DNA of 36,819 nt from Candidatus Fermentibacterota bacterium (lineage in GTDB: Bacteria > Fermentibacterota > Fermentibacteria > Fermentibacterales > JCC-6): positions 1 to 36,819 of the forward strand of contig JAUVIR010000033.1 of assembly GCA_030592645.1 (NCBI GenBank), read 5' to 3'. This document shows, piece after piece, positions 4,050 through 36,199 of this stretch; positions within the stretch are counted from its first letter, which is position 1; the number at the start of each line of letters is the position of its first letter. Below the pieces are notes generated by a model, which saw only the letters and a list, made by a program, of their open reading frames with translations, was not told where the DNA came from and did no database searches. A program made the translations under genes and the position numbers.

Positions 4050-4724
4050 ATGAACAAAATGACCCGTCTTATGACAGTATGCGCAGCATTACTGCTCATC
4101 GTACCGGCAGCCAGCGCTGACTGGTCCGATAACTTCGATTCCTACGCTCTTAACAGCGGATTGATCGGCCAGGGCGGCTGGGACGGCTGGGAAGGCGCTG
4201 CTGCTGCGGATGCCTTCGTAACAGATACACAGGTTCTCACAGCACCCCATGCGCTGGCATCAATTCCAACAACGGATATCGTACAGGAATTCAATGAAAC
4301 CAGCGGCGACTGGATCATGACAGGATACTGCTACATCCCCAGCGGCTCTACAGGCAAGCAGTACTTCATCATGCTTAACATTTACGGTGCCGGTGTACAT
4401 AACTGGTCCGTCCAGCTTGAATATGATTCAGACGGCGGAATCGTAACGGATTACTACAGCTCCGCTGTAGCATCCCTTATCAACGACGCATGGGTAGAGG
4501 TTCGCGCTGAGATCCATCTTGATATCAATGTATACGACCTCTACTACAATGATGTTTTCCTTGCTTCAAACGCATGGCAGGATGGTTCAGGCGTAAATGA
4601 AATAGCCGCGCTTGATATCTTCTCCGACGGTGGAAGCACCATCTACTGGGATGACTTGACACTGATATACGAGGATGCTCTTCAGCACACAACATGGGGA
4701 CATATCAAGACCCTTATGCAGTAA
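4050..4724 (+). CDS. Secreted lectin/glucanase-fold-like protein with C-terminal TW-IK tag
   Basis: Encodes 224 residues starting at ATG 4050, chosen because GAGGGGG lies 5 nt upstream; a longer frame begins at 4014 but has no ribosome-binding site. Residues 1-23 (MNKMTRLMTVCAALLLIVPA...) are a signal peptide. The mature part (DNFDSY, a Gly/Trp-rich start, alternating beta-strand character, IYWDDLTLIYE near the end) resembles concanavalin-A-like lectin/glucanase (LamG/DUF1080-type) beta-sandwiches; that assignment is by general pattern only. The last residues, ALQHTTWGHIKTLMQ, match the ends of four unrelated secreted paralogs at 11548-14713, suggesting a shared sorting or anchoring tag. It is a single-gene unit with its own promoter and terminator. 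No catalytic function can be claimed. Confidence 0.8.
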   Translation: MNKMTRLMTVCAALLLIVPAASADWSDNFDSYALNSGLIGQGGWDGWEGAAAADAFVTDTQVLTAPHALASIPTTDIVQEFNETSGDWIMTGYCYIPSGSTGKQYFIMLNIYGAGVHNWSVQLEYDSDGGIVTDYYSSAVASLINDAWVEVRAEIHLDINVYDLYYNDVFLASNAWQDGSGVNEIAALDIFSDGGSTIYWDDLTLIYEDALQHTTWGHIKTLMQ

Positions 4725-4745
4725 ACTGTGCAGAATTGATACTTG

Positions 4746-4776
4746 GGGAGCCGGTTTTCCGGCTCCCTTTTCTTTT
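4746..4776 (+). terminator. Rho-independent terminator
   Basis: A perfect 9-bp stem GGGAGCCGG / CCGGCTCCC with a TTTT loop is followed by TTTTCTTTT, 21 nt after the stop of the small secreted protein gene. Confidence 0.9.
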
Positions 4777-4810
4777 ACTCCAGGAATGTTGCCTGTCATA
4801 CAAACAGCCC

Positions 4811-4837
4811 TTGACAAAGTATGACTGGAATTACATT
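4811..4837 (+). promoter_or_regulatory. Possible selC promoter
   Basis: A perfect TTGACA (4811-4816) lies 42 nt before the tRNA. The best -10 is TACATT (4832-4837) at a short 15-nt spacing; TAAAAT at 4847-4852 is too far from it. The -35 is convincing and the -10 is not settled. Confidence 0.35.
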
Positions 4838-4858
4838 TGTTGCTGGTAAAATAAACGC

Positions 4859-4955
4859 GGGAGCGCACGGGGACTGGTGTCCCTCCCGGACTTCAAATCC
4901 GGTGCTGGGTGCTAGAACCACCCTGGGTGGGTTCGATTCCCACACGTTCCCGCCA
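4859..4955 (+). tRNA. selC: tRNA-Sec (anticodon TCA)
   Basis: This 97-nt tRNA, with CCA encoded, has the hallmarks of a bacterial selenocysteine tRNA. The anticodon arm CCGGA-CTTCAAA-TCCGG carries TCA, which reads UGA. The D stem has 6 bp (GGGGAC/GTCCCT), the variable arm is long (GGGTG...CACCC), and the T arm is GTGGG-TTCGATT-CCCAC. The acceptor strands GGGAGCGC and ACGTTCCC give seven pairs including one G-T wobble; the eighth, next to the T stem, is a C/A mismatch. The discriminator base is G. It implies that this genome makes selenoproteins with SelA/SelB, although none is recognisable in the window. The gene ends 2 nt before the convergent tcdA stop codon. Confidence 0.95.
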
Positions 4956-4957
4956 TT

Positions 4958-5698
4958 CTATTGCGGCTCCGCTATCTTATCCAGCACCATTCCAGCAAGC
5001 GTATACCCGAATATTCCGGGCATTACCATAAGGCTGGATATCCGGTTTCTTACCCTCCCCCGTTCATATGTAAGATCGTCCGTATCGGGAGGAAATGAAT
5101 GGTCGCCGGCAGGTTCTGTTGAATACACGCAGGGTATACCGCTGGTAATTCCGCGCTTACGGAGGTACTTCCTGAGCTGTTTCGCAAGAGGGCAGGTTCT
5201 TGTCCGTGATATATCACCAATATTGACATGTGACGGATCTCTCCTTCCAGACGCGCCCATACTGCTGAAAACAGGTATCCTCTGTTCAACGCAGTATTCA
5301 AGCAGCGCGGCTTTGGGATTAAGGCTGTCTATGGCATCGACGACTACATCTGGTGCTGGCTTGAGAATCAGATCAGCGGTATCTGAATGAAAAAACTCCG
5401 TGATGGTCTCAACCCGGGTGTCAGGGCAGGTCCTGCGAAGATGATCTGCAACAATATCAACCTTGTAACCGCCGCAGTCTCTCAATCGGGCCATGGGATT
5501 TCTGTTCAGAGATGTTTCCGTAAGCCTGTCAAAATCAACAAGGCGAAGTATACCAATCCCGCTTCTTGCAAGCGCGGCCGCAACATGGCAGCCGACTCCG
5601 CCAAGACCAATAACCGCGACATCCGCTTCGCGTATTGCAAGAAATGATTCGCTGCCGAAATAATCAACTACCCTGTCGAATCTTCGCTGAAACTGCAT
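4958..5698 (-). CDS. tcdA: tRNA threonylcarbamoyladenosine dehydratase (TcdA/CsdL, E1-like)
   Basis: The 246-residue protein is an E1-like ThiF-fold ATPase. TcdA cyclises N6-threonylcarbamoyladenosine at position 37 of ANN-decoding tRNAs. Visible features are the nucleotide-binding VAVIGLGGVGCHVAAALARS (about residues 27-46), DFDRLTETSLNRN, VVDAIDSLNPKAALLEYC, and the family-typical CPLAKQLRKYLRKRGI...GIPCVYSTE region, which separates TcdA from MoeB/ThiF. No C-terminal CxxC zinc pair is seen. It lies 3 nt downstream of the TatD gene stop and is probably co-transcribed with it; an AAGG motif about 10 nt upstream can serve as ribosome-binding site. Grouping with a tRNA gene is likely chance. 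Confidence 0.88.
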   Translation of the reverse strand: MQFQRRFDRVVDYFGSESFLAIREADVAVIGLGGVGCHVAAALARSGIGILRLVDFDRLTETSLNRNPMARLRDCGGYKVDIVADHLRRTCPDTRVETITEFFHSDTADLILKPAPDVVVDAIDSLNPKAALLEYCVEQRIPVFSSMGASGRRDPSHVNIGDISRTRTCPLAKQLRKYLRKRGITSGIPCVYSTEPAGDHSFPPDTDDLTYERGRVRNRISSLMVMPGIFGYTLAGMVLDKIAEPQ

Positions 5699-5701
5699 GT
5701 C

Positions 5702-6472
5702 TTACCGGCCTTCTCTGATATTGAAAAGCTCCATCGAATTTCCTGCGGTCCGGGAGGCAATTTCCTCAGAATTGATTCCGCGAAGCAGTGCCAGTGCTTC
5801 AGCTATTCGGGCGATATATGCCGGCTCCATCTGTTCTGGCTCGACCCCGTCCATTCCGATGGAGGGAGCATCGGTCTCAAGAACAATTCTATTAAGGGGT
5901 ACCGCTGCCGCGGCACTTCTTGCTCTCTTTGCGCGGGATCTTGTAACAGCTCCTCCGAATGCAAGGTAGAAACCAAGATCAAGGAAACGCTCGGCCAGCT
6001 GCGTCCCCCTTGTGAAGGCATGCAATACGCCAGTAATCCTGCGATTGTATTTCTTCTCCGATAGAATGGAGAGCATTTCATCGAAAGCTCCCCTGCAGTG
6101 CAGAATTACAGGTAAACCAAGCTCGGAGGCAAGATCCAGCTGCCTGCGGAATACTATGATCTGTGTACTTCTGTCAGGATTTTCAATTTTGAAATCGAGA
6201 CCAATTTCACCTACGGCAACCGAACCTGTTTCGATCAGGAGCTTTCCAAGCAAACCCGTATCAAGTATCTCATCTGCAAACCAGGGATGAAGTCCAAGAG
6301 CCGGGTAAACTGCCCGATACTCTGACAGTTCAGCTATTCTCTGCCAGGAGCTGGTTTCTACAGCGGGAACGATGATCGCAGTAATGCCTCTGCGAGCGGC
6401 TCTTTTCAGAACACCGTCAATATCGCCGCATAGCGGTTCCATGAACAGATGGCAGTGGGTGTCAATCAGCAT
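5702..6472 (-). CDS. TatD-family metal-dependent hydrolase (DNase)
   Basis: Encodes 256 residues from ATG 6472; a TTG codon at 6484 extends the frame by four residues but lacks a ribosome-binding site. The TatD metal ligands are all present: DTHCHL near the N terminus, VAVGEIGLDF (Glu), VILHCRGAFDE (His), GVLHAFTRG (His) and LETDAPS (Asp). Family members are cytoplasmic TIM-barrel 3'-5' exonucleases/DNases linked to DNA repair and quality control; substrate cannot be fixed from sequence. Its length fits the family, and it forms a two-gene unit with tcdA. Confidence 0.88.
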   Translation of the reverse strand: MLIDTHCHLFMEPLCGDIDGVLKRAARRGITAIIVPAVETSSWQRIAELSEYRAVYPALGLHPWFADEILDTGLLGKLLIETGSVAVGEIGLDFKIENPDRSTQIIVFRRQLDLASELGLPVILHCRGAFDEMLSILSEKKYNRRITGVLHAFTRGTQLAERFLDLGFYLAFGGAVTRSRAKRARSAAAAVPLNRIVLETDAPSIGMDGVEPEQMEPAYIARIAEALALLRGINSEEIASRTAGNSMELFNIREGR

Positions 6473-6564
6473 ATCGGATTCCAATGGATTAAGTAAAGAA
6501 TATCTTATCGGCTTTACTACAATGCATTCTGCATCGACAGGCCCGATATGTCCAGAGCAGCAGG

Positions 6565-7503
6565 TCAGTAGGTCAGTGTTCTCTGCTTGAATCCGTATCC
6601 CATTACATCGTAAGCATCATGCAGAACCATGAATGCATCCGAATCGATCTTCTTCAGTATTCTTCTGAGAATCATAACCTGCCTGCGATGAATACAGACG
6701 TAAATAACATCTTTCTCTTTCCTGCTGTATCCTCCCTCCGCCTTGAGGAAAGTTACACCTCTATTGAGTTTCTGAAAAATGGCATCCCTTACTTCATCAG
6801 GTCTCTCGGTCACTATCATCACCGCTTTTACATAGGGCATCCCCTCAGCGGCGAAATCAGTCATCCTGCTTGTAAGGAAAAGGTTAAGATAAGCCCATAT
6901 TACGATGACCGGATTCCGGAATACAATACCAACAGCCAGGATTATCAGGGATTCGACCATCCAGTAACCGGTGCTTATCGAAACTCCTGTATACTTTTTC
7001 AGTATTGCCACCGGAATATCAGTCCCGCCGGTGGAACCACGGTATTTGAAGATCAGGCCAAGGCCGAGGCCAAGCAGAGCGGAACCGGCAATGGAAGCCA
7101 GGAGTATATCCATTTCAGAATTACCTGTAAAAAAGACCGCCAGCCGCGGCAGCTCTCCAGCCGGGGCAATGTTATGTACGAAGTTTTTATAATTCGAAAG
7201 AAATGATAGATGTGAAGGCTGAAAGAGCCAGCACATGGAATTCGACATGAGCATTCCAACAAGACTTCTTACCCCGAATTGTTTCCCGACGACCAGGTAA
7301 CCCAGAAAGAAGAGGGGTACATTGAAACCGAACATCCAGATGCTTTCAGAGACACCTGTCCAGTGGTACAGAACCTGCGCCAGTCCGGCTACTCCGCCAG
7401 GTGATATCCGAAAGGGAAACAGGAACCATGAATACGCCATTCCAAACAGAATGGAACCTGCTGCAATACCTGCATAGTCCTGAAATTCATTCCTGATGCT
7501 CAC
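6565..7503 (-). CDS. YitT-family membrane protein (DUF161 + DUF2179)
   Basis: About 312 residues with several hydrophobic spans (AGIAAGSILFGMAYSWFLFP and ISPGGVAGLAQVLYHWTG at the N terminus, later FKYRGSTGGTDIPVAILKKY), then a soluble C-terminal DUF2179-like domain of about 80 residues (AVMIVTERPDEVRDAIFQKL ... VIYVCIHRRQVMILRRILKKI). This is the standard YitT/YqfU arrangement; the biochemical role of the family is not established. The GTG at 7503 is the best start: AGGAGGTGAT pairs fully with the 16S tail and lies 8 nt from it, while the ATG at 7509 is inside that Shine-Dalgarno sequence. Confidence 0.85.
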   Translation of the reverse strand: MSIRNEFQDYAGIAAGSILFGMAYSWFLFPFRISPGGVAGLAQVLYHWTGVSESIWMFGFNVPLFFLGYLVVGKQFGVRSLVGMLMSNSMCWLFQPSHLSFLSNYKNFVHNIAPAGELPRLAVFFTGNSEMDILLASIAGSALLGLGLGLIFKYRGSTGGTDIPVAILKKYTGVSISTGYWMVESLIILAVGIVFRNPVIVIWAYLNLFLTSRMTDFAAEGMPYVKAVMIVTERPDEVRDAIFQKLNRGVTFLKAEGGYSRKEKDVIYVCIHRRQVMILRRILKKIDSDAFMVLHDAYDVMGYGFKQRTLTY

Positions 7504-7608
7504 TCTCATCACCTCCTGGATGTGAAAAAGAAAGGGACAAAACCGGAAGCGGCCTTGCCCTGACATGTGCGGGAAATATAATCAAATGTTTCGCTGATCA
7601 GTTAACAA

Positions 7609-8367
7609 TCAGCAAGTTTTTGGGATTCTACCTGCGTTCTCATCTTCCAGCAGAGCAGCTTTGATCTTGCGCTTCGCCAGGATTATTGCCCATACCAGAA
7701 CAGGAGGAAGGCCGAGTAGAACGAATTCACTCCAGTATGGGATAGCGAATATGCACAGGTCGTAAAGACCATGGAATAGAACGGCAAGAAGGAAACCCTT
7801 CATGATCAGCTTTCGCCTTGATCTTCTATTCTCGCTGAATTTAGCCATTCCTATCCAGTAGCCCATGATAACCGACACTGAAGCATGCATTGGAATTGAA
7901 GTGAATGCTCTGAGAATACCTACCGCTATACCGTTTCCGAGGACATACAGAACATTCTCCAGACAGGCGAAACCCATCCCGGCAATCACAGTATATACGA
8001 TTCCATCCATAACTTCATTGAAGCACTTCTTTCTAAAAACAAACTTCATTACAATAAAAAGCTTCAGGCTTTCCTCCACCAGCCCCGCTACGATAAATGC
8101 CTTGAATACCGGATAGAGGAGACGATAACAGGGATTGAGTAATCCCCTCAGTTCATCGAGACCCAATTCTATAAATATTGCCGGGACTGTTGATAGAAGT
8201 CCAAGCAGGAATATTCTGATGATAATGCGCTTCGGCTCCGGCTTCGCCCTGTCTTTCCTGTAAAAGTATATGACAATGATCAGAGCGGGAACTACTGCAA
8301 GCGCCAGCGAAAGGGCAAGGTTCATCTTCAGCGGATAAAGACGGTTAAAGATTGTTTCATGAAACAC
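7609..8367 (-). CDS. prsW: PrsW-family intramembrane metalloprotease
   Basis: The 252-residue polytopic protein matches the PrsW/CPBP-like family of membrane-embedded proteases that cleave transmembrane substrates such as anti-sigma factors. Diagnostic residues are present: AGLVEESLK (Glu pair near residues 98-99), FNEVMDGIVY, GFACLENVLY (Glu near 137), PMHASVS (His 161) and FHGLYD (His). At least six hydrophobic segments are visible. No substrate or anti-sigma gene lies nearby. The start is uncertain: GTG 8367 has GAGGG too close to it, and an in-frame ATG at 8325 (MNLALSLALAV) could be the true start. Confidence 0.82.
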   Translation of the reverse strand: MFHETIFNRLYPLKMNLALSLALAVVPALIIVIYFYRKDRAKPEPKRIIIRIFLLGLLSTVPAIFIELGLDELRGLLNPCYRLLYPVFKAFIVAGLVEESLKLFIVMKFVFRKKCFNEVMDGIVYTVIAGMGFACLENVLYVLGNGIAVGILRAFTSIPMHASVSVIMGYWIGMAKFSENRRSRRKLIMKGFLLAVLFHGLYDLCIFAIPYWSEFVLLGLPPVLVWAIILAKRKIKAALLEDENAGRIPKTC

Positions 8368-8618
8368 CCTCTTTCATCATACAGTACACTGTCAAGTATC
8401 AGATGCCGTCAGTTTGCGAATCTATTCTGCGCTCCTGAAAGGCACTGGTGAAGGCGCATTGCAGAGCTATGTAACTGAACCGTAACGAAGCAGGTGCGCT
8501 GAAGAGCGAGCAGGATACGGCAGGTAATGCTTGACAGAGTACTAGCATTTCATTGCCATGGAATAGATTATTGTCAATATATGTATCTGATGTAAATAAT
8601 CGAAAGGGGATACTTGAT

Positions 8619-10826
8619 ATGAAATACGCTTATACTTTTCCGGTAATTCTTCTTATTCTACTGATTCCATGCTGCAGCAGCGGAGGAGAAACCATGCTTG
8701 ATTCAGGCAACGATGTTATTGATGAAGAACTGCGATTCCCGGCGGAAGTAAACGTGGCTGAAACATTCGCTGACAGATTCTTCGAATCAGTGGAATCGGT
8801 TGTTATTCCGAATATGGCTTCTCTTCAGTTACCGGTTAACCCTGAGGAAGTATTCAACCTAGATGATATCATCAGTGTATCGGGTATCGGCCGTATTCCA
8901 GAAGTGCTGCTGGAGAATGGTTTTGTTGTATACGAACCGTTCCATGTAACGAACAACCCGATCAGAGCGTACGAATTTATAAAATCATGGGATCAGCCGG
9001 TATACATTTCTGCCGGTATTCCTCTTCACATGCTTCATATCTTCTTCGACCAGATCCTCCAGGATATAGAAGAAAATTATCTGTACGGCGATCTCGAAAT
9101 CGTCTGCCGGAATCTGTACGAAAGTAATTTTGAACGAGGCTGCAACCTGAATGCCGCTTTCTTTGCCGTACCCCTGGCGTTCCTCGATCCGGATTTTGAG
9201 CCTGACCACTCCATTGCAGAAGCTGTTGACGCTGAAGTGGCACTTATCGAAGAACACATCGGCTTTGATGACAGCCCCGTAATGGGATACAGGGAAGATT
9301 ACTCCCAGTACGTTCCGAGGGGACACTATACTGCCAGCCCCGGGCTCGAGCGGTATTTCAAGGCGATGATGTGGCTGGGCAGGCTTACGTTCATTCTGAA
9401 CGGAGGAGAGCCCAACGGACAGATGGCTGAATACATCGTTGCAGAAGAAGATGCCCGCGTTATGACTGCAAGCGCTCTCTGTATCGTTTCAGATCTTTCG
9501 GAAATTGAGTATGAAGGAGAACTTCTTCTTGATAAATGGCGTCGGATCTATGAGATAACAGCTTTCTTCGCCGGTTTTGCAGACGATCTCTCCGTGCCGC
9601 AGTACGCTTCTGCAGCGCGGGAGACCGCAGGCGAAGCCGCGGACAGCCAGCTTATATGGAGTATGGATTTCTACAGGCTGTTCAGAGATTACGTTAACTC
9701 CAATTTTGCGGGCCCTGCCATCTACAGTGGTACAGGGGAGCTGATATCAATGCCTGACGAACAGGGGGAATTCGATCCGAACGATCTGCAGGAGGCATTT
9801 CTGAAAACGACCGGTTTCAGGTTCCTCGGTCAGAGATACACCCCTGACAGCGAAATTCTTGGAAAACTCGTTTTCCCGGCTGTTGGAGCGAATCCGCAGG
9901 GAAACCGGAGGTTCATGCCCTCCGGCCTCGATATTGCTGCCGCCTTCGGCAGTGAGGCTGCCATCTCTATCCTTGAAGAACGCGGAGACCTGGAATTTGC
10001 ATCCTACCCGGATTCTTTGGAGTCGATGCGCGGAATGATAGAGGATTACAGTCCCTCCGATTGGCATGCAACACTTTACATGTCATGGCTCCACTGCATT
10101 TACCTTCTTCAGCAGGATAAGGGTGAGGGTTATCCGGATTTCATGCGGACGGATGCCTGGGAACGCCATACTCTTTCAAATTTCCTGGCATCCTGGGCGA
10201 TGCTCAGGCATGACACAATTCTTTACGCAAAACAGAGTTATACCATGGAGTGCGGCTGCTCGCCCGGCCCCTATGAGGAACCCGAGCCCTCCGCCGGATT
10301 CGTTGAACCTGTACCGGAAGTTTACGCCCAGTTGAATGCAACACTTCAGATGGCACAGAGGGGTCTTCGTGAATACGGCGTTCTTGACAGCAGTATAGAA
10401 GGCAGATTCAGGAATGCCTGTTCAATTATGACCCGTCTTCAGGATATAGCTGAAAGGGAACTTGCGGGCTCCGTCATAACGTCTGAGGATGCCGACTTTC
10501 TCAAGAGTTTCGCAGCTAACCTGGAATCGGCAATCTCGTGGGGAGCCGAAACAACAGAGGGCCTGGAAACATCACTTATCGCCGATGTACATACGGATCA
10601 GAACAGCGGTTCGGTGCTTGAGGTTGCTTCTGGAGACCTTGACTACTGCATGGTCATATACAGAAGACCTGACGGCAATGTCGAGGCGGCAGTGGGACCT
10701 GTGCTCAGCTATTACGAATTTACATGGCCCATGTCGGACAGACTGACCGATGAAGCCTGGAGAGAAATGCTGTCGGGGGATGAAACACCCGAACGACCGT
10801 TCTGGACAATGGAATACATGAAGTAA
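8619..10826 (+). CDS. DUF3160 lipoprotein, function unknown
   Basis: 735 residues from ATG 8619, preceded by AAGGGG 9 nt upstream; a frame opening at 8553 only adds an unsupported extension. The N terminus MKYAYTFPVILLILLIPCC is a lipoprotein-type signal, with cysteine 18 or 19 followed by SSGGE; the lipobox (LIPC) is imperfect. The body shows the DUF3160 pattern: LLENGFVVYEP, a PVYISAGIPLHMLHIFFDQI block, EDYSQYVPRGHYT and LERYFKAMMWLGR. DUF3160 proteins are large exported proteins of unknown role. No C-terminal TW-IK tag is present (it ends WTMEYMK), consistent with lipid anchoring instead. It is a single-gene unit, convergent with the next gene. Confidence 0.85.
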   Translation: MKYAYTFPVILLILLIPCCSSGGETMLDSGNDVIDEELRFPAEVNVAETFADRFFESVESVVIPNMASLQLPVNPEEVFNLDDIISVSGIGRIPEVLLENGFVVYEPFHVTNNPIRAYEFIKSWDQPVYISAGIPLHMLHIFFDQILQDIEENYLYGDLEIVCRNLYESNFERGCNLNAAFFAVPLAFLDPDFEPDHSIAEAVDAEVALIEEHIGFDDSPVMGYREDYSQYVPRGHYTASPGLERYFKAMMWLGRLTFILNGGEPNGQMAEYIVAEEDARVMTASALCIVSDLSEIEYEGELLLDKWRRIYEITAFFAGFADDLSVPQYASAARETAGEAADSQLIWSMDFYRLFRDYVNSNFAGPAIYSGTGELISMPDEQGEFDPNDLQEAFLKTTGFRFLGQRYTPDSEILGKLVFPAVGANPQGNRRFMPSGLDIAAAFGSEAAISILEERGDLEFASYPDSLESMRGMIEDYSPSDWHATLYMSWLHCIYLLQQDKGEGYPDFMRTDAWERHTLSNFLASWAMLRHDTILYAKQSYTMECGCSPGPYEEPEPSAGFVEPVPEVYAQLNATLQMAQRGLREYGVLDSSIEGRFRNACSIMTRLQDIAERELAGSVITSEDADFLKSFAANLESAISWGAETTEGLETSLIADVHTDQNSGSVLEVASGDLDYCMVIYRRPDGNVEAAVGPVLSYYEFTWPMSDRLTDEAWREMLSGDETPERPFWTMEYMK

Positions 10827-10833
10827 CCGGAAC

Positions 10834-11298
10834 TTAGAATCCGAGTCCGACGCCGCCTGAAAAGATCCAGTCATGATAGGTATCTACCCCCGAAACATGA
10901 CGGTAGATACCTGCGGACAGTATGAAGAGGTGAAATCCGCCGCGCGCTTCAATCCCGGCATAAGTCTGATCATTAGCAAGACCGTTCCAGGGATTGTTCC
11001 ATGTGTACATGAGGGAGCAGCAAATATCAACTGATGTGATCGGGATAAATACCATGCTGAAAGCGCTTCTTACCCCAAGATGCACCTTACCGCCGGCAAG
11101 CCCCGGTTCAAGCCGGAATACAAGACCGCTGTCACCGCCCCAGAGACTGTTCCAGGGAATACTGGAAAAACCGATCGATACACTGATCTTCTGCGGCGTG
11201 GTTACCTTCAGCCCTACTGTCGGGGACCAATCAGGAAAGCCTCCATTCACTGCTGATACTGAACATAAGAAGAGAAGAATAACGACAAGAATTCTCAC
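10834..11298 (-). CDS. Small exported protein, possibly outer-membrane beta-barrel-like
   Basis: 154 residues from GTG 11298, with GGGGGTG 6 nt upstream. A signal peptide (MRILVVILLFLCSVSAVNG) is followed by alternating hydrophobic/polar strands with many aromatic and glycine residues (VGLKVTTPQKISVSIGFSS, FHLFILSAGIYRHV). The protein ends in a strand finishing with phenylalanine (IFSGGVGLGF), as outer-membrane barrel proteins do. No family is recognised. The short length would allow about eight strands at most. It is convergent with the DUF3160 gene, stops 7 nt apart. Confidence 0.65.
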   Translation of the reverse strand: MRILVVILLFLCSVSAVNGGFPDWSPTVGLKVTTPQKISVSIGFSSIPWNSLWGGDSGLVFRLEPGLAGGKVHLGVRSAFSMVFIPITSVDICCSLMYTWNNPWNGLANDQTYAGIEARGGFHLFILSAGIYRHVSGVDTYHDWIFSGGVGLGF

Positions 11299-11468
11299 TA
11301 TGACACCCCCGATTGATATGCTGCTATTATGCCAGGGTCTTCCCTTCCATACAATGCTTGAATCCTGAGATCACACTCACTTATCGAGGGAATTCTGTTC
11401 AACTGACTTGCAGGTATGCATTTCCGGCAATTTGCGTAAATATCCTCTGCTGCTAGCAATCTTCTGAA

Positions 11469-11496
11469 TTGACAATACCCCGACATTTCGTAGGTT
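11469..11496 (+). promoter_or_regulatory. Possible promoter of secreted paralog 1
   Basis: A perfect TTGACA (11469-11474) is followed after 16 nt by TAGGTT (11491-11496), about 50 nt before the start codon at 11548. The -10 is a partial match. Confidence 0.35.
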
Positions 11497-11547
11497 ATGC
11501 GTAATTCTGGTGCAATTGGTATTTACACTATTTGAAAGGAGAACACT

Positions 11548-12246
11548 ATGAAATTTGTACTTTCTATACTTGTGCTTGCTGTGTCTCTCAGTATGGCTGC
11601 AGAGCCTACGGCTATCGGCGGCGGTAGCGGTGGAACAACCTGGCTGGGTTCCGACGCTGAAACGGTTTTCTTGTCTCAGCTTCCCACTGGAGGCGCTCAG
11701 GGATCCCAGAATTTCACGGATGAGCCAACTTACGATGCTGGTGTAGCGGACGATTTCGAATTCGCCGTATCAACAACCATCAACAGGATACGCTGGTGGG
11801 GCGGTTACTGGAATGGTACAGTCACCCCTCCAATTGATTCTCCCATGGAGATCTACCTCTACAATGATGATGGTACCGGAAATGCACCCACACTTCCTCA
11901 GCATTCTTCAGCTATCACCAGCTGGATGATTCCTGCAGGCGGGTACACCCAAGTCGCTGACGGAGCAAACTACCGTTGTGAATTCGATTTCCCGACATGG
12001 GTAGTTTTCGATCCCGGAGTGAAGTACTGGTTCGAGATCCGCATTGCAATGCCGTTCACTCCACACGGACAGTATGGCTGGGTTGAGTCAACGCCTGTCA
12101 CCAATTCACCCTGCGTTCAGGGATTCGACGGCCTCAGCATACCCTGGTGGACACCAAGAACTGGCGATGCAGCGTTCGAGCTTGTCTTCGACGATGCGAT
12201 CGCACTTGAAAGATCAACCTGGGCTGATATCAAAACAATCTTCTAA
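11548..12246 (+). CDS. Tandem secreted paralog 1, C-terminal TW-IK tag
   Basis: 232 residues; start fixed by AAAGGAG at 11536-11541. The signal peptide (MKFVLSILVLAVSLSMA) probably ends after residue 17. The mature protein has the blocks common to all four paralogs: SQLPTGGAQGSQ, YDAGVADDFEF, NRIRWWGGYWN, PMEIYLYNDDGTGNAPTLPQ, YWFEIRIA, CVQGFDGLSIPWWTP and DAAFELVFDD, then ALERSTWADIKTIF. Together they suggest a beta-sandwich rich in Trp, Asp and Gly, perhaps a surface or carbohydrate-interacting domain; I do not recognise a named family, and no catalytic motif is evident. It has its own promoter candidate and a strong terminator, so it can be expressed separately from the next three copies. 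Confidence 0.85.
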   Translation: MKFVLSILVLAVSLSMAAEPTAIGGGSGGTTWLGSDAETVFLSQLPTGGAQGSQNFTDEPTYDAGVADDFEFAVSTTINRIRWWGGYWNGTVTPPIDSPMEIYLYNDDGTGNAPTLPQHSSAITSWMIPAGGYTQVADGANYRCEFDFPTWVVFDPGVKYWFEIRIAMPFTPHGQYGWVESTPVTNSPCVQGFDGLSIPWWTPRTGDAAFELVFDDAIALERSTWADIKTIF

Positions 12247-12267
12247 ACAGCCAGGGTCTGAATCATT

Positions 12268-12300
12268 ACCGGGAAGAGCACCTGCTCTTCCCGGTTTTTC
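12268..12300 (+). terminator. Rho-independent terminator after paralog 1
   Basis: ACCGGGAAGAGCA (12268-12280) pairs perfectly with TGCTCTTCCCGGT (12283-12295), followed by a run of T. The innermost base pair probably opens to give a four-base loop. Confidence 0.92.
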
Positions 12301-12388
12301 TATCTATAGAAATGATCAATATTCTGTGTGGATAAATCTCTTCTTATTCAGCATTTACACAAGCCTCAAAGCCTGTCCCGATTCAGCA

Positions 12389-12418
12389 TTGACATGACTC
12401 TCCGGACACTTGTAGATT
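12389..12418 (+). promoter_or_regulatory. Promoter of secreted paralogs 2 to 4
   Basis: TTGACA (12389-12394), an 18-nt spacer and TAGATT (12413-12418) lie about 50 nt before paralog 2. This is the only good promoter seen between the terminator of paralog 1 and the end of the array. Confidence 0.45.
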
Positions 12419-12469
12419 TAGTCTACGTATAGTGAATAGGAACTTAAACTATTTGAAAGGAGACACACT

Positions 12470-13168
12470 ATGAAACTTGTACTTTGCTTGCTTGTACTTG
12501 CCGTATCACTCAGTATGGCTAGCGTAACAGTAGATGTAGAAGGTACCAGTGGAACGAACTGGTATCCTAGTGATGCTGAAACCATTCTCTGGGAACAGCC
12601 TCAGACAGGTGGCGCTCAGGGATCCCAGTACTTCACTGACATGTATCCTGATTACGACGCGGGTGTTGCAGATGACTTCATGTTCCCAACAGAAACCCTT
12701 TGTAACAAAATCAAATGGTGGGGCGGCTACTGGAACACCTCCGAGCCTTTCCCTATCGTTGCTCCTGTAGAAATTTACCTCTACTTGGATGACGGTACAC
12801 TTGCTTCTCCTACTCTTCCCCAGCATTCCTCAGCTATTCAGAGCTGGATGATCGCTGTCGGAGAGTACGACGAAGTCGCCGATCTTGACAACTTCCTTTG
12901 CACCTACTTCTTCCCCGAATGGGTAGTTTTCGATGCAAACGTCACATACTGGGTCGAGATCCGCAAGGCCTACGCGTTTGATCCTTACGGCCAGTACGGC
13001 TTTGTAGAGTCCGCACCTGGTTTCCTTGCTCCCTGCGTCCAGGGATTCGACGGTCTTGGAATAGACTGGTGGACCCCAAGAGATGCCGGCGCAGCATTTG
13101 TACTTATCTGGGATGATGCCGGTGCACTGGAATCATCAACCTGGGGTGATATCAAAACAATCTTCTAA
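12470..13168 (+). CDS. Tandem secreted paralog 2, C-terminal TW-IK tag
   Basis: 232 residues; GAAAGGAG lies upstream at the usual spacing. The signal peptide is MKLVLCLLVLAVSLSMA. It has the family blocks GGAQGSQYFTDMYPDYDAGV, KIKWWGGYWNTSEP, PVEIYLYLDDG, WVVFDANVTYWVEIRKAY, CVQGFDGLGIDWWTP and AAFVLIWDD, and ends ALESSTWGDIKTIF. Relative to copy 1 it lacks the TGN tripeptide after DDG. The WNTSEP segment is shared with copy 4 but not with copies 1 and 3. Function unknown, exported and probably surface-associated. Confidence 0.85.
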   Translation: MKLVLCLLVLAVSLSMASVTVDVEGTSGTNWYPSDAETILWEQPQTGGAQGSQYFTDMYPDYDAGVADDFMFPTETLCNKIKWWGGYWNTSEPFPIVAPVEIYLYLDDGTLASPTLPQHSSAIQSWMIAVGEYDEVADLDNFLCTYFFPEWVVFDANVTYWVEIRKAYAFDPYGQYGFVESAPGFLAPCVQGFDGLGIDWWTPRDAGAAFVLIWDDAGALESSTWGDIKTIF

Positions 13169-13190
13169 ACACCCTCTGGTTCTAGTTATT

Positions 13191-13223
13191 AACCGGGAAG
13201 AGCGAAAGTTCTTCCCGGTTTTT
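13191..13223 (+). terminator. Terminator or attenuator between paralogs 2 and 3
   Basis: AACCGGGAAGA (13191-13201) pairs perfectly with TCTTCCCGGTT (13210-13220) and is followed by TTT. Only 23 nt separate it from the start codon of paralog 3, so there is no room for a promoter between them and copies 3 and 4 probably depend on readthrough. Confidence 0.85.
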
Positions 13224-13243
13224 AAGTTGAAAGGAGACACACC

Positions 13244-13954
13244 ATGAAACCTCTGCTTCTTGTGCTTGGGCTTGCTGTGTCCCTCAGTACAGCCGGAGAC
13301 CCGACTGCGACGGGAGATATTATCAGCAGCGGGTCAGGGTCAAGCTGGCAGGGTTCCGAATATGAGATCGTGCGCTGGTCTCAGCTTCCCACCGGAAGCG
13401 CAATGGGATCACAGTATTTCCCTGATATGTATCCCACTTACGATGCAGGTGTTGCGGACAATTTCGAATTTGCAGAAACAACCACAATAATGAGGATTCG
13501 CTGGTGGGGCGGTTACTGGAATGGTTCTGGTTCCTACCCAGTTGATTCTCCCGTAGAGATCTACCTCTACCTCGATGACGGCACCGGAAATGCGCCCACA
13601 CTTCCACAGCATACTTCAGCTATCAAGAGCTGGATGATCCCCATGGGAGATTACGATGAAGTCCTAGATGGTTCAGACTACAGATGCGAATATATTTTCC
13701 CCTCATATGTAGTATTCGATCTCAACACACACTACTGGCTCGAGATACGCAAGGCATTCCCGTTCGATCCACTGGGCCAGTACGGCTGGATCCAGTCAGA
13801 GCCTGTCAGCCTTTCACCCTGCGTTCAGGGTTTTGACGGCCTCGGCATAGTCTGGTGGACAGCTCAGACTACGGACGCAGCCTTCGAGCTGATCTGGACC
13901 CCTCCTCCCGCATTGGATCGATCGACCTGGGCTGAGATAAAAACAATCTTCTAA
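13244..13954 (+). CDS. Tandem secreted paralog 3, C-terminal TW-IK tag
   Basis: 236 residues, with GAAAGGAG 8 nt upstream. The signal peptide is MKPLLLVLGLAVSLSTAG. The mature N terminus (DPTATGDIISSGSG) is shared only with copy 4. Then come the family blocks RIRWWGGYWNGSGSYPVDSP, VEIYLYLDDGTGNAPTLPQH, YWLEIRKAFPFDP, GQYGWIQSEPVSLSP and CVQGFDGLGIVWWTAQTTDA, ending ALDRSTWAEIKTIF. The gene immediately follows the terminator of copy 2 and lacks a promoter of its own. Function unknown; exported. Confidence 0.85.
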   Translation: MKPLLLVLGLAVSLSTAGDPTATGDIISSGSGSSWQGSEYEIVRWSQLPTGSAMGSQYFPDMYPTYDAGVADNFEFAETTTIMRIRWWGGYWNGSGSYPVDSPVEIYLYLDDGTGNAPTLPQHTSAIKSWMIPMGDYDEVLDGSDYRCEYIFPSYVVFDLNTHYWLEIRKAFPFDPLGQYGWIQSEPVSLSPCVQGFDGLGIVWWTAQTTDAAFELIWTPPPALDRSTWAEIKTIF

Positions 13955-14008
13955 AGACCATAGTTTTGGGATGATTGTGAACTTGAAGTATTTGAAAGGA
14001 GACACACC

Positions 14009-14713
14009 ATGAAATCTCTGCTATTTATGCTGGCATTTGCTGTGTCCCTCAGTACAGCAGAAGACCCGACTGCGACGGGAGATATTATCAGCAGCGGGTC
14101 AGGCTGGCAGGGGTCCGACGATGAAGATATTGTCTGGTCTCAACTTCCCACAGGAAGCGCCATGGGATCGCAGTACTTCACCGACCTGTATCCTGACTAC
14201 GATGCAGGTGTTGCGGACAATTTCGAATTCGACGTATTCACCATAATCAACAGGATACGCTGGTGGGGCGCTTACTGGAATACCTCTGAGCCTATTCCTA
14301 TCGATGCTCCAGTAGAGATATACCTCTACCTCGATGACGGCACCGGAAATGCACCCACACTTCCCCAGCATGCCTCAGCTATCCGGAGCTGGACGATTCC
14401 GGCTGGAAATTACGACGAGGTCGCTGATGGGGGTTATTACTTGTGCGAGTATGATTACCCATTTTACGTATCACTTAGCGCTGGAGTCAGATACTGGCTC
14501 GAGATACGCAAGGCATTCCCGTGGGAACCTTGCGGTCAGTACGGCTGGATTCAATCCGAGCCTGTCAGCCTTTCACCCTGCGTTCAGGGTTTTGACGGTC
14601 TCGGCATAGTCTGGTGGACAGCTCAGACAACAGATGCAGCATTCGAGCTTATCTGTAATGATCCATATGCACTGGAAGCATCCACCTGGGCTGAGATCAA
14701 AACAATCTTCTAA
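14009..14713 (+). CDS. Tandem secreted paralog 4, C-terminal TW-IK tag
   Basis: 234 residues, with GAAAGGAG upstream. The signal peptide is MKSLLFMLAFAVSLSTA. The protein is mosaic: its first ~60 residues (DPTATGDIISSGSG) and its last ~60 (GQYGWIQSEPVSLSP, FDGLGIVWWTAQTTDA) match copy 3, while the middle (WNTSEPIPIDAPVEIYLYLD) resembles copy 2. It ends ALEASTWAEIKTIF. It lies 54 nt after copy 3 with no terminator between them, and is convergent with guaA. Function unknown; exported. Confidence 0.85.
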   Translation: MKSLLFMLAFAVSLSTAEDPTATGDIISSGSGWQGSDDEDIVWSQLPTGSAMGSQYFTDLYPDYDAGVADNFEFDVFTIINRIRWWGAYWNTSEPIPIDAPVEIYLYLDDGTGNAPTLPQHASAIRSWTIPAGNYDEVADGGYYLCEYDYPFYVSLSAGVRYWLEIRKAFPWEPCGQYGWIQSEPVSLSPCVQGFDGLGIVWWTAQTTDAAFELICNDPYALEASTWAEIKTIF

Positions 14714-31034: not shown

Positions 31035-31415
31035 ATGAAAACTGAGGATCACAATCTTAAGGAACTCTCTGAACTTATGAACGTACTGGGGGTTGAAAGC
31101 AGGCTGAGGATCATTACACTCCTGAGAGACTACGAATCCCTCTGTGTTAATGCCCTTGCATGCCGCCTCGATATTTCCCAGAGCGCGGTATCCCAGCACC
31201 TGAAAATTCTCCATCTTAAGGGTTTCGTCACTTCCCGCAGAGACGGATACTACACCCATTACTGTCTGAACAGAGAGAAATTCGACAGCTCCATGCAGCT
31301 GCTGTCTAAGCTTTCTATCAGACGCGACCCTATTGATCCTGATAATAAATGCAATTCGAAAGGAGAAAAACCATGTGCGGATGCGAAAAAGAGTGCCAGA
31401 AACCGGAAAACCTGA
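31035..31415 (+). CDS. ArsR/SmtB-family transcriptional repressor
   Basis: 126 residues with a winged helix: ALGVESRLRIITLL-type first helices (VLGVESRLRIITLLRDYESL), then LCVNALACRLDISQSAVSQH recognition region and LKGFVTSRRDGYYTHYCLN wing. Family members release DNA on binding metals or on thiol chemistry. Candidate sensing cysteines are in SLCVNALACRL (two Cys in the region where ArsR/CadC-like proteins bind metal) and in the tail (CNSKGEKPC). TGGAGA lies 5 nt before the ATG. It is the first gene of a three-gene operon and overlaps the next ORF by 43 nt. The inducing ligand is unknown. Confidence 0.88.
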   Translation: MKTEDHNLKELSELMNVLGVESRLRIITLLRDYESLCVNALACRLDISQSAVSQHLKILHLKGFVTSRRDGYYTHYCLNREKFDSSMQLLSKLSIRRDPIDPDNKCNSKGEKPCADAKKSARNRKT

Positions 31416-31510
31416 AAGACAAACCGGAAAATTGTTCCCCCGAACAGATACATGAATGTCATGGCCCGGATGGTCATCATCCATGCACTTCGAACAAAAA
31501 GGAAGAGTAA
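31373..31510 (+). CDS. 45-residue Cys/His-rich putative metal-binding protein
   Basis: A 45-residue ORF with a textbook ribosome-binding site (AAAGGAG, 7 nt before ATG). The sequence starts MCGCEKECQK and contains six cysteines (2, 4, 8, 21, 29, 38) and four histidines (27, 30, 35, 36), ending with a charged NKKEE tail. It has no signal peptide, so it should be cytoplasmic. The first half overlaps the end of the ArsR gene in another frame, and its stop overlaps the start of the next gene (TAATG). The composition suggests a small metal chaperone or metallothionein-like buffer; no named family is recognised. Confidence 0.7.
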   Translation: MCGCEKECQKPENLKDKPENCSPEQIHECHGPDGHHPCTSNKKEE

Positions 31511-31800
31511 TGAAACGGATAATACTTGTTGCTTTAAGCATTGCTATAGCCGGCACCTTTGCCATAGCACAGGCACAGGAAGATGCTTCTGCCCCTGACT
31601 GCGATCACTATGAAACCGCTGAGGGAGAATGCTGCTGCGACGGCACAGTTGACGGCTGCACGGAAGATTGTGACAGCTGCGAAGAACGCGACTGTGATTG
31701 CGAAGAAGATTGTACCTGCGATACCGACTGCAGCTGTGACGACTGTACTTGTGAAGAAGATGATGAGGAAGAGGTTCATCGCTGCGGCGACTGCCACTGA
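31510..31800 (+). CDS. Exported acidic Cys-rich metallothionein-like protein
   Basis: 96 residues from ATG 31510, which overlaps the stop of the previous ORF; GGAAGAG lies just upstream. Residues 1 to about 22 (MKRIILVALSIAIAGTFAIA) are a signal peptide. The mature part has 17 cysteines in about 74 residues, arranged largely as CxC, CxxC and Cx3C steps between Asp/Glu (EDCTCDTDCSCDDCTC), plus a final HRCGDCH. Such acidic Cys clusters resemble metallothioneins or metal-sequestering periplasmic proteins, but disulfide-bonded structure is also possible outside the cytoplasm. Its operon with an ArsR regulator favours metal handling. Confidence 0.8.
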   Translation: MKRIILVALSIAIAGTFAIAQAQEDASAPDCDHYETAEGECCCDGTVDGCTEDCDSCEERDCDCEEDCTCDTDCSCDDCTCEEDDEEEVHRCGDCH

Positions 31801-35339: not shown

Positions 35340-35396
35340 CCAAATTAATACACCAAGAAGCAATCCATCATCCTTCTTCTCCATTCTCTTTGCCCC

Positions 35397-35425
35397 TTGA
35401 AATTCTCATAAATAGTGCGTACACT
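35397..35425 (+). promoter_or_regulatory. RAYT promoter
   Basis: TTGAAA (35397-35402), 17 nt, then TACACT (35420-35425). Transcription would start only a few bases before the ATG at 35435, so the message would be almost leaderless; no Shine-Dalgarno sequence is visible. Confidence 0.45.
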
Positions 35426-35434
35426 AATATTGTT

Positions 35435-36199
35435 ATGGGACAACATATACGACCTGATTGGGAAGGCGCCCTGCACCATGTGATGGCTCGTGGGATAGAC
35501 GGCAGATCCATATTCAATTCCACGGTAGACCGTTCTGACATGTATCAGAGGCTATCTCAACTTGTTGCTGAAACAGGAACCCGGATCTATGCATGGGTCA
35601 TTATGCCAAATCATTTACATCTTCTTATTCGCACCGGAATTAAACCTATCAGTACTTTCATGCATAGATTACTCACCGGGTATGCCATCTGCTATAACCG
35701 GAGAGAAGATAGAAAGGGCTATGTCTTCCAGGGAAGGTTTAAATCAATACTGGTACAGGAAGATGAGTACTTTCTTCAGTTGGTCAAATACATCCATCTC
35801 AATCCCTTAAAGGCCGGAATAGTGAATGATTATGACTCACTTGAACGTTACAATTGGTCTGGTCATAAAAGCCTTCTTGGTGTAGGAATAACGCCCTGGC
35901 AGGATGTGAATTATGTACTTTCCAAATTCAATATTCTACACAGTAAACCAAAACTGCAATATTTGAAATTCATTAAAGAGGAAATGAGTGATAAAGAGAC
36001 ACTCAAACTGATATGGGGAGTTGCGCTGAGTTCAATAAGGGGGAGTAACAGGAGTCCTGAGCTTTCAGATGCTCGTGCTATGATAGCATGGATTTGCTGG
36101 AAACAAATAGGTTTGAGTAAAACTGATTGCGCAAGAATACTCAATAAATGCAGGTCGGGAGCATCACAAGCAATAGACAGAGGTACCCTACTCGCATAG
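35435..36199 (+). CDS. REP-associated tyrosine (Y1, HUH) transposase
   Basis: 254 residues from ATG 35435. The HUH motif is in MPNHLHLLI (His 60 and His 62) and the likely catalytic tyrosine in LVKYIHLNPLKAGI (Tyr 119). The N terminus (WEGALHHVMARGIDGRSIF) and the KGYVFQGRFKSILV segment are also typical of the IS200-like TnpA_REP (RAYT) family. Residues ~205-250 (SDARAMIAWICWKQIGLSKT...) add a helix-turn-helix resembling DnaA domain IV, as seen in some RAYTs. The enzyme is expected to cut single-stranded REP hairpins; RAYTs are usually single-copy and domesticated. The frame is intact. A frame opening at 35390 has no better start. Confidence 0.9.
   Translation: MGQHIRPDWEGALHHVMARGIDGRSIFNSTVDRSDMYQRLSQLVAETGTRIYAWVIMPNHLHLLIRTGIKPISTFMHRLLTGYAICYNRREDRKGYVFQGRFKSILVQEDEYFLQLVKYIHLNPLKAGIVNDYDSLERYNWSGHKSLLGVGITPWQDVNYVLSKFNILHSKPKLQYLKFIKEEMSDKETLKLIWGVALSSIRGSNRSPELSDARAMIAWICWKQIGLSKTDCARILNKCRSGASQAIDRGTLLA

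Follow-up and report, generated by a model that had tools for sequence, protein, structure and literature searches.

A short motif at the C terminus of exported proteins in Fermentibacterota, Poribacteria and other phyla as a candidate new sorting tag

Introduction

In the PEP-CTERM/exosortase and GlyGly-CTERM/rhombosortase systems, as described in PMC3237569, a short region of C-terminal homology is carried by otherwise unrelated exported proteins, many of them per genome. The type IX secretion system uses C-terminal domains (CTDs) of two classes. Type A CTDs (TIGR04183), which depend on PorV and PorU, form an immunoglobulin-like (Ig-like) sandwich of about 70 to 100 residues, or 40 to 55 in the short form, and the shortest CTDs described in PMC11969387 have 40 to 55 residues and three strands. 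Type B CTDs with PorP/SprF shuttles are described in PMC12618676 as an alternative signal class for the same translocon. Here we analysed a motif of about 14 residues, with the core [ST]-T-W-[GA]-x-I-K-x-x-F, which lies at the extreme C terminus of exported proteins and which was first noticed on five proteins in a stretch of 36,819 nucleotides (contig JAUVIR010000033.1, the whole of which is called the window below). The window belongs to a genome of 2.58 Mb in 73 contigs, taken as Candidatus Aegiribacteria (Fermentibacterota).

A sequence-only reading of the window had interpreted the motif as a sorting tag, and our results support this interpretation. The tag is confirmed as real, is spread over several phyla, more widely than that reading saw, and is unusually short. 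It is very probably a C-terminal sorting tag of some kind, and the overall best explanation, to which we assign a probability of about 0.6, is a C-terminal sorting signal read by outer-membrane machinery, most likely of a type IX-like kind. Similar to the type A CTD, the tag is C-terminal and is carried by dozens of signal-peptide proteins per genome, which have many different folds, and the genomes carrying it also encode SprA, PorV-family homologues and CTD-like domains; unlike the type A CTD, it is limited to about 14 residues and contains no Ig-like sandwich itself, and the sequence upstream of it differs among 42 families. Type B CTDs are likewise much longer, with 150 to 235 residues. 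The tag resembles PEP-CTERM and GlyGly-CTERM in being a short C-terminal homology on unrelated exported proteins, many per genome, but those signals combine a motif with a transmembrane helix and a basic cluster, while the tag has neither a membrane-spanning helix nor a basic cluster. No paper describing the tag was found in the open-access literature, which was searched in full text with six spellings of the motif and by title or abstract for the phyla together with type IX secretion or sorting, and a subscription paper could exist.

Placement of the tag

The placement of the tag is beyond chance. A DNA pattern for [ST]TWxxIK gave 19 matches in the 2.58 Mb genome in comparison to 2 for the reversed control, and in 17 of the 19 the motif started 10 to 13 residues before the end of the open frame. 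A hidden Markov model (HMM) of 18 positions, built from 45 ends and not requiring a stop codon, gave 26 matches in the same genome at E<=10, 25 of these with E<0.05. The tag ended within 7 residues of the stop in 25 of the 26 matched proteins; in the exception (L173) it lies 19 residues inside, and by eye this protein resembles one (L105) that stops right after the tag. For other genomes, the distance from the core lysine to the stop was 2 to 6 residues at 66 of 68 loci, a set obtained from 81 loci after 11 without a core near the expected place and 2 absent or identical ones were dropped. These three counts (17/19, 25/26 and 66/68) are the unbiased measure of placement; the pattern used in the scan of about 85,000 species genomes reported below demanded a phenylalanine followed by the stop, and the C-terminal placement in that scan therefore holds by construction. 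A second HMM, for the Poribacteria form of the tag, gave 51 matches on loci of its own choosing, all 51 within 7 residues of the stop and none in reversed frames. Both HMMs applied to 731 kb of stretches not selected for tags gave 1 forward match and 0 reversed matches.

The tag sequences contain W, K and polar residues throughout, and end 2 to 6 residues after the lysine, with no transmembrane helix and no basic cluster. No CTD or CTERM model matched any of 15 tagged proteins scanned (NCBIfam, E<=1), TIGR04183 and the type B models included, and PF18962 matched none of 24 tagged proteins of the window genome (Pfam). The initial claims that the tag lacks a transmembrane helix and an Ig-like domain thus hold; in two Coatesbacteria proteins a Big_5 Ig-like domain lies just before the tag, as one cargo fold among many. 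The last residue is hydrophobic in most tags of the window genome, which would suit a C-terminal degradation or quality-control signal for a periplasmic PDZ protease. The most invariant positions T, W, I and K, however, sit 4 to 9 residues inside the end (the tags compared had been chosen for that core), and Y, R, N, H or K are also found as the last residue of Poribacteria tags, so we regard a degradation signal as very improbable.

Tagged proteins of the window

The five proteins and their tags are as follows.

4050 to 4724, + strand: secreted protein of 224 residues with tag, not DUF7901; no Pfam match; six relatives at other Fermentibacterota loci, 6/6 tagged
4677 to 4721, + strand: tag ALQHTTWGHIKTLMQ; tag HMM 31.4 bits, E 6.5e-7
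11548 to 12246, + strand: secreted DUF7901 protein with tag; Pfam PF25470, E 5e-8
12202 to 12243, + strand: tag ALERSTWADIKTIF; tag HMM 35.0 bits
12470 to 13168, + strand: secreted DUF7901-like protein with tag; PF25470 below cut-off (E 0.0075), aligns with the other three paralogues
13124 to 13165, + strand: tag ALESSTWGDIKTIF; tag HMM 34.0 bits
13244 to 13954, + strand: secreted DUF7901 protein with tag; Pfam PF25470, E 7e-6
13910 to 13951, + strand: tag ALDRSTWAEIKTIF; tag HMM 35.1 bits
14009 to 14713, + strand: secreted DUF7901 protein with tag; Pfam PF25470 at cut-off (24 bits)
14669 to 14710, + strand: tag ALEASTWAEIKTIF; tag HMM 29.9 bits

All five C-termini are present in the sequence exactly as the sequence-only reading gave them, and a hydrophobic, signal-peptide-like N-terminus was found in 5/5 frames, signal peptides being called here and below by a hydropathy window and not by a trained predictor. 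The last four proteins had been called paralogues, and they indeed belong to the DUF7901 family, the second of them falling below the Pfam cut-off on its own. The first protein had been described as unlike these four; with the tag removed, no homology between it and them was detectable (hhalign probability 2%), and full-length homology was rejected; the identities of 23 to 27% come from a forced global alignment with the tag included.

Some neighbouring genes were also noted. A DUF3160 lipoprotein (8553-10826) adjoins the DUF7901 tag cluster, and a related protein occurs at five other loci (L057, L059, L122, L127 and L135). It had been pointed out as lacking the tag, and so it does, but a lipoprotein family is tagged elsewhere (L186, L106, L113). 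A PrsW-family intramembrane metalloprotease (7609-8367) is located near the tag cluster; because the tag has no transmembrane helix, we saw no reason to link the two. Farther along, an ArsR-family regulator (31035-31415) directly precedes a small signal-peptide-like protein (31456-31800) which is very rich in Cys, Asp and Glu, has no Pfam match and is possibly metal-binding, and an IS200-like (Y1) transposase-family protein is encoded at 35390-36199.

Cargo families and folds

A signal-peptide-like N-terminus was found in 24 of the 26 tagged proteins of the window genome, the two exceptions being short frames of 113 and 89 residues. The corresponding figures were 145 of 163 frames overall and 64 of 68 in the loci of other genomes, with several of the failures being truncated frames. 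After removal of the tag, 160 tagged proteins, a set which leaves out three Dehalococcoidia frames (L052, L069, L103), fell into 42 BLAST families (single linkage, E<1e-5), 12 of which occur in the window genome (strict motif). By Pfam, the cargo of the window genome includes DUF7901, CBM96 and DOMON, with an SGL-type propeller below cut-off, and that of the other phyla includes LamG, 3-keto-disaccharide hydrolase and a PD40 propeller. The NCBIfam models gave a choice-of-anchor J match below cut-off and a match to a PEP-CTERM propeller protein (ScyF) far below cut-off, the latter over the propeller and not over the tag. Tagged proteins are shorter than CTD frames in the window genome, with a median of 224 in comparison to 522 residues, based on 23 of 26 tagged proteins and 15 of 116 CTD frames, the CTD lengths being somewhat overstated because these are stop-to-stop frames.

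Among 35 homologous frames missing the motif, many carry the tag in diverged form, and others are truncated or tagless. One tagged family (L106, L113, L159, L186) is lipoprotein-like in the three members inspected, and two of its loci, L106 and L113, also contain untagged homologues of it. In general, many unrelated signal-peptide proteins have only the terminal motif in common and some full-length homologues are untagged, as is expected of a sorting tag. The motif is not confined to one paralogue family, to the middle of proteins or to proteins without signal peptides, nor is the first window protein a detectable distant homologue of the other four, which were the grounds on which the sequence-only reading would have given up its interpretation.

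The carbohydrate-binding and adhesive-looking folds among the cargo would also fit a docking peptide, that is, a short amphipathic helix which, in the manner of encapsulation peptides or dockerins, has no part in transport but binds exported proteins to a shared scaffold at the surface or in the periplasm, and the spacing of W, I and F (i, i+3, i+7) would place them on one face of such a helix. However, no scaffold gene was identified, and the two AlphaFold models of tagged proteins (mean pLDDT, the predicted local distance difference test score, of 38.5 and 58.2) have values of about 29 to 46 in the tag region, which is too poor for its helicity to be assessed. A docking peptide appears improbable, if less so than a degradation signal.

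Distribution among genomes and phyla

The DNA pattern was matched in 41 of 42 genomes of the order (G000-G041, all taken as Fermentibacterota), the window genome included. Among 60 relatives counted, 40 of the 41 of the same order had 2 to 25 matches and one congener (G005) had none, and 18 distant genomes had 0 to 3 matches, as in their controls. The tag HMM similarly found 5 to 31 tags in 25 of 26 genomes of the order, again with none in G005, in comparison to 0 to 1 in six distant genomes.

The scan of about 85,000 species genomes matched at least 113 stretches, 80 of which were examined. Tag phyla account for 71 of these: 39 are Fermentibacterota, 16 Poribacteria, and 16 others are Latescibacterota-like (including Gemmatimonadota and Handelsmanbacteria labels), Krumholzibacteriota, Eisenbacteria or Coatesbacteria. 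Five of the 71 are labelled Gemmatimonadota, and their proteins cluster with Latescibacterota or Handelsmanbacteria ones; the Eisenbacteria genome has a single pattern match (L079) and no HMM match. The remaining 9 look like chance matches (Dehalococcoidia 3, Actinobacteria 2, and one each in Bacilli, Campylobacter, Ruminiclostridium and an unnamed bacterium).

The Poribacteria tag is a longer form, V-x-P-x-x-K-L-x-T-T-W-G-x-I-K. The Fermentibacterota HMM had no match in three Poribacteria genomes, and a separate Poribacteria HMM was therefore built, which detected tags in 78 of 78 Poribacteria genomes, from 15 to at least 113 in each, where 113 is the number of candidates that were scored. 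Reversed frames, the only controls for this HMM, gave 0 matches. The expectation of dozens of varied signal-peptide proteins with the motif in the last 15 residues or so is thus borne out, both by these numbers and by the 26 tagged proteins of the window genome.

Type IX components and the route of export

SprA (TIGR04189) was found over the curated cut-off in 40 of the 42 genomes of the order, with a fragment in G015 and only an 18.6-bit match over 52 positions in G005. The cut-off was also exceeded in all six genomes from Latescibacterota, Coatesbacteria, Krumholzibacteriota and Eisenbacteria. Among Poribacteria, 77 of 78 genomes had matches at E<=1e-5, all below cut-off, mostly in frames of about 2,000 to 2,300 residues (for example L236:5136-11981). 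None of 14 named control genomes had SprA. PorV-family proteins numbered 5 to 24 per genome in 24 of 24 tag-phyla genomes tested, G005 included, and were also present in two tagless distant genomes (G044, G048). CTD-like matches (36 to 150 per genome, E<=0.1) coexist with the tag; these counts are upper bounds because the model, which resembles an FlgD-type Ig domain, also matched in 6 of the 14 named controls, over cut-off in 1.

Since type IX parts are present and the tag is found on typically small proteins lacking a CTD, the tag is most simply read as an alternative type IX signal. Under this reading, Sec would take the tagged protein across the inner membrane via its signal peptide, and the last 14 residues or so would then be recognised in the periplasm by outer-membrane export or sorting machinery, most likely the encoded type IX-like apparatus with its SprA translocon and PorV-family shuttles. 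The short peptide would serve small single-domain cargo as the Ig-like CTD serves larger cargo. Recognition of the tag, its recognition by SprA or PorV, and any cleavage or anchoring are what we infer from this genomic pattern. That the tag works via the SprA apparatus is, in our estimate, an even bet. More tentatively, with odds somewhat below even, it could be a third, minimal type IX-type export signal of about 14 residues without a folded domain, used by many small exported proteins in Poribacteria (often more than 100 per genome) and Fermentibacterota.

The neighbourhood of these components was also examined for a partner gene. In four Fermentibacterota stretches, sprA is surrounded by genes for pilus-type ATPases, lptF, lptG, an aminotransferase and ligA (NAD-dependent DNA ligase), with no tag-specific gene; the neighbour domains were confirmed in the window genome and identified by eye in the other stretches. 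One locus (L226, G000:C23) has SprA beside pilus-type ATPases and lptF/lptG. Another locus of the same genome (L298, G000:C65) is a TonB-ExbB cluster that also encodes a PorV paralogue, a CTD protein and two proteins with GWxTD domains. The clade of this PorV paralogue (L298/L302/L310/L313), absent among the G005 matches, was considered as a tag-specific partner and rejected, because the gene shares its TonB-ExbB cluster with the gene for a classical CTD protein and because the tag-bearing G037 had no match of that strength among the matches listed; five of the 40 rows of the PorV tree (L314, L316, L317, L319, L333) are probably wrong reading frames. The co-occurring transpeptidase or secretion gene foreseen by the sequence-only reading was found in part: SprA and PorV-family homologues are there in the tag genomes, but no dedicated partner was shown, and both also occur in tagless bacteria.

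Several observations weigh against the favoured explanation. Their co-occurrence is no proof, because it is confounded by shared ancestry. Five distant genomes (G042, G044, G047, G048, G050) have SprA over cut-off with pattern counts at background, and the tag HMM gave 0, 1 and 0 matches in three of them. In one Poribacteria genome (G119), 80 tags were found but SprA had no match. The gene directly upstream of sprA is visible in 20 Poribacteria loci, and in only 4 of these is it tagged, as judged by eye; the strict motif flagged 0 of those upstream genes, and one of the four continues for 13 residues after the lysine. The HMM was also applied to 398 kb surrounding sprA in Poribacteria, where it detected 1 tag at E<=0.01 and 4 at E<=1. 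This is below the number expected from the genome average, and tags are therefore not clustered there. Neighbour clustering in the fetched loci gave no obvious partner gene, and one tagged family consists of lipoproteins, which already have an N-terminal anchor. Finally, the tagless G005 retains PorV, a PorU-like sortase and 36 CTD-like matches.

This congener, a 98%-complete genome of 1.9 Mb with neither tags nor SprA, either has a gap in its assembly or is an unusual, reduced genome. Its PorU-like protein, looked for in G005 only, is a C25 peptidase scoring 320 bits in comparison to the NCBIfam PorU cut-off of 420, and is encoded in a cluster with PorV and an M6-type metalloprotease (L306, G005:C2). 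The genes ligA and lptF, which lie near sprA elsewhere, had no match in G005 to the window-genome proteins, in searches of which one had two congeners as positive controls and the other none. Since these neighbours are missing too, the absence of SprA may be an assembly gap. The argument that G005 lost tags and SprA together was thus dropped as proof, with ligA and lptF also missing while PorV, the PorU-like protein and CTD-like domains remain. In summary, SprA tracks the tag within the phyla tested, but it is also found elsewhere in genomes without tags, and its absence from the sole tagless congener may be due to an assembly gap.

The occurrence of SprA without tags in distant genomes, and of PorV, a PorU-like protein and CTD-like domains in the tagless G005, would be consistent with a dedicated receptor or processing enzyme unrelated to SprA, serving many proteins as exosortase and rhombosortase do. 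The genomic pattern, with many unrelated signal-peptide proteins having only the C-terminus in common, is that of those systems. A membrane peptidase, however, would find neither a transmembrane helix nor a basic cluster to recognise in the tag, and the few neighbour families shared across phyla in the fetched loci (ABC transporter ATPases, a sigma factor, FG-GAP repeat proteins) seem by eye to be of a general kind. We consider a dedicated receptor unlikely, although clearly less so than a docking peptide.

Biological meaning

Poribacteria are prominent sponge symbionts. With the tag, candidate exported proteins can be listed simply, dozens to more than 100 of them in each Poribacteria genome, and a candidate exit for them is the SprA-like open frame that 77 of 78 of these genomes have. 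A 2014 study of Poribacteria genomes (PMC3909097) reported type IX sorting domains but did not find the structural genes, and it did not settle the route of secretion. The tag is a candidate new C-terminal sorting tag, and it is the route served that we infer. If the type IX-like reading is true and a 14-residue peptide suffices, it would be an export handle far smaller than the described CTDs of at least 40 residues, an SprA-type translocon would be addressable by a linear peptide, and there would be a type IX pathway in a phylum whose structural genes were reported missing.

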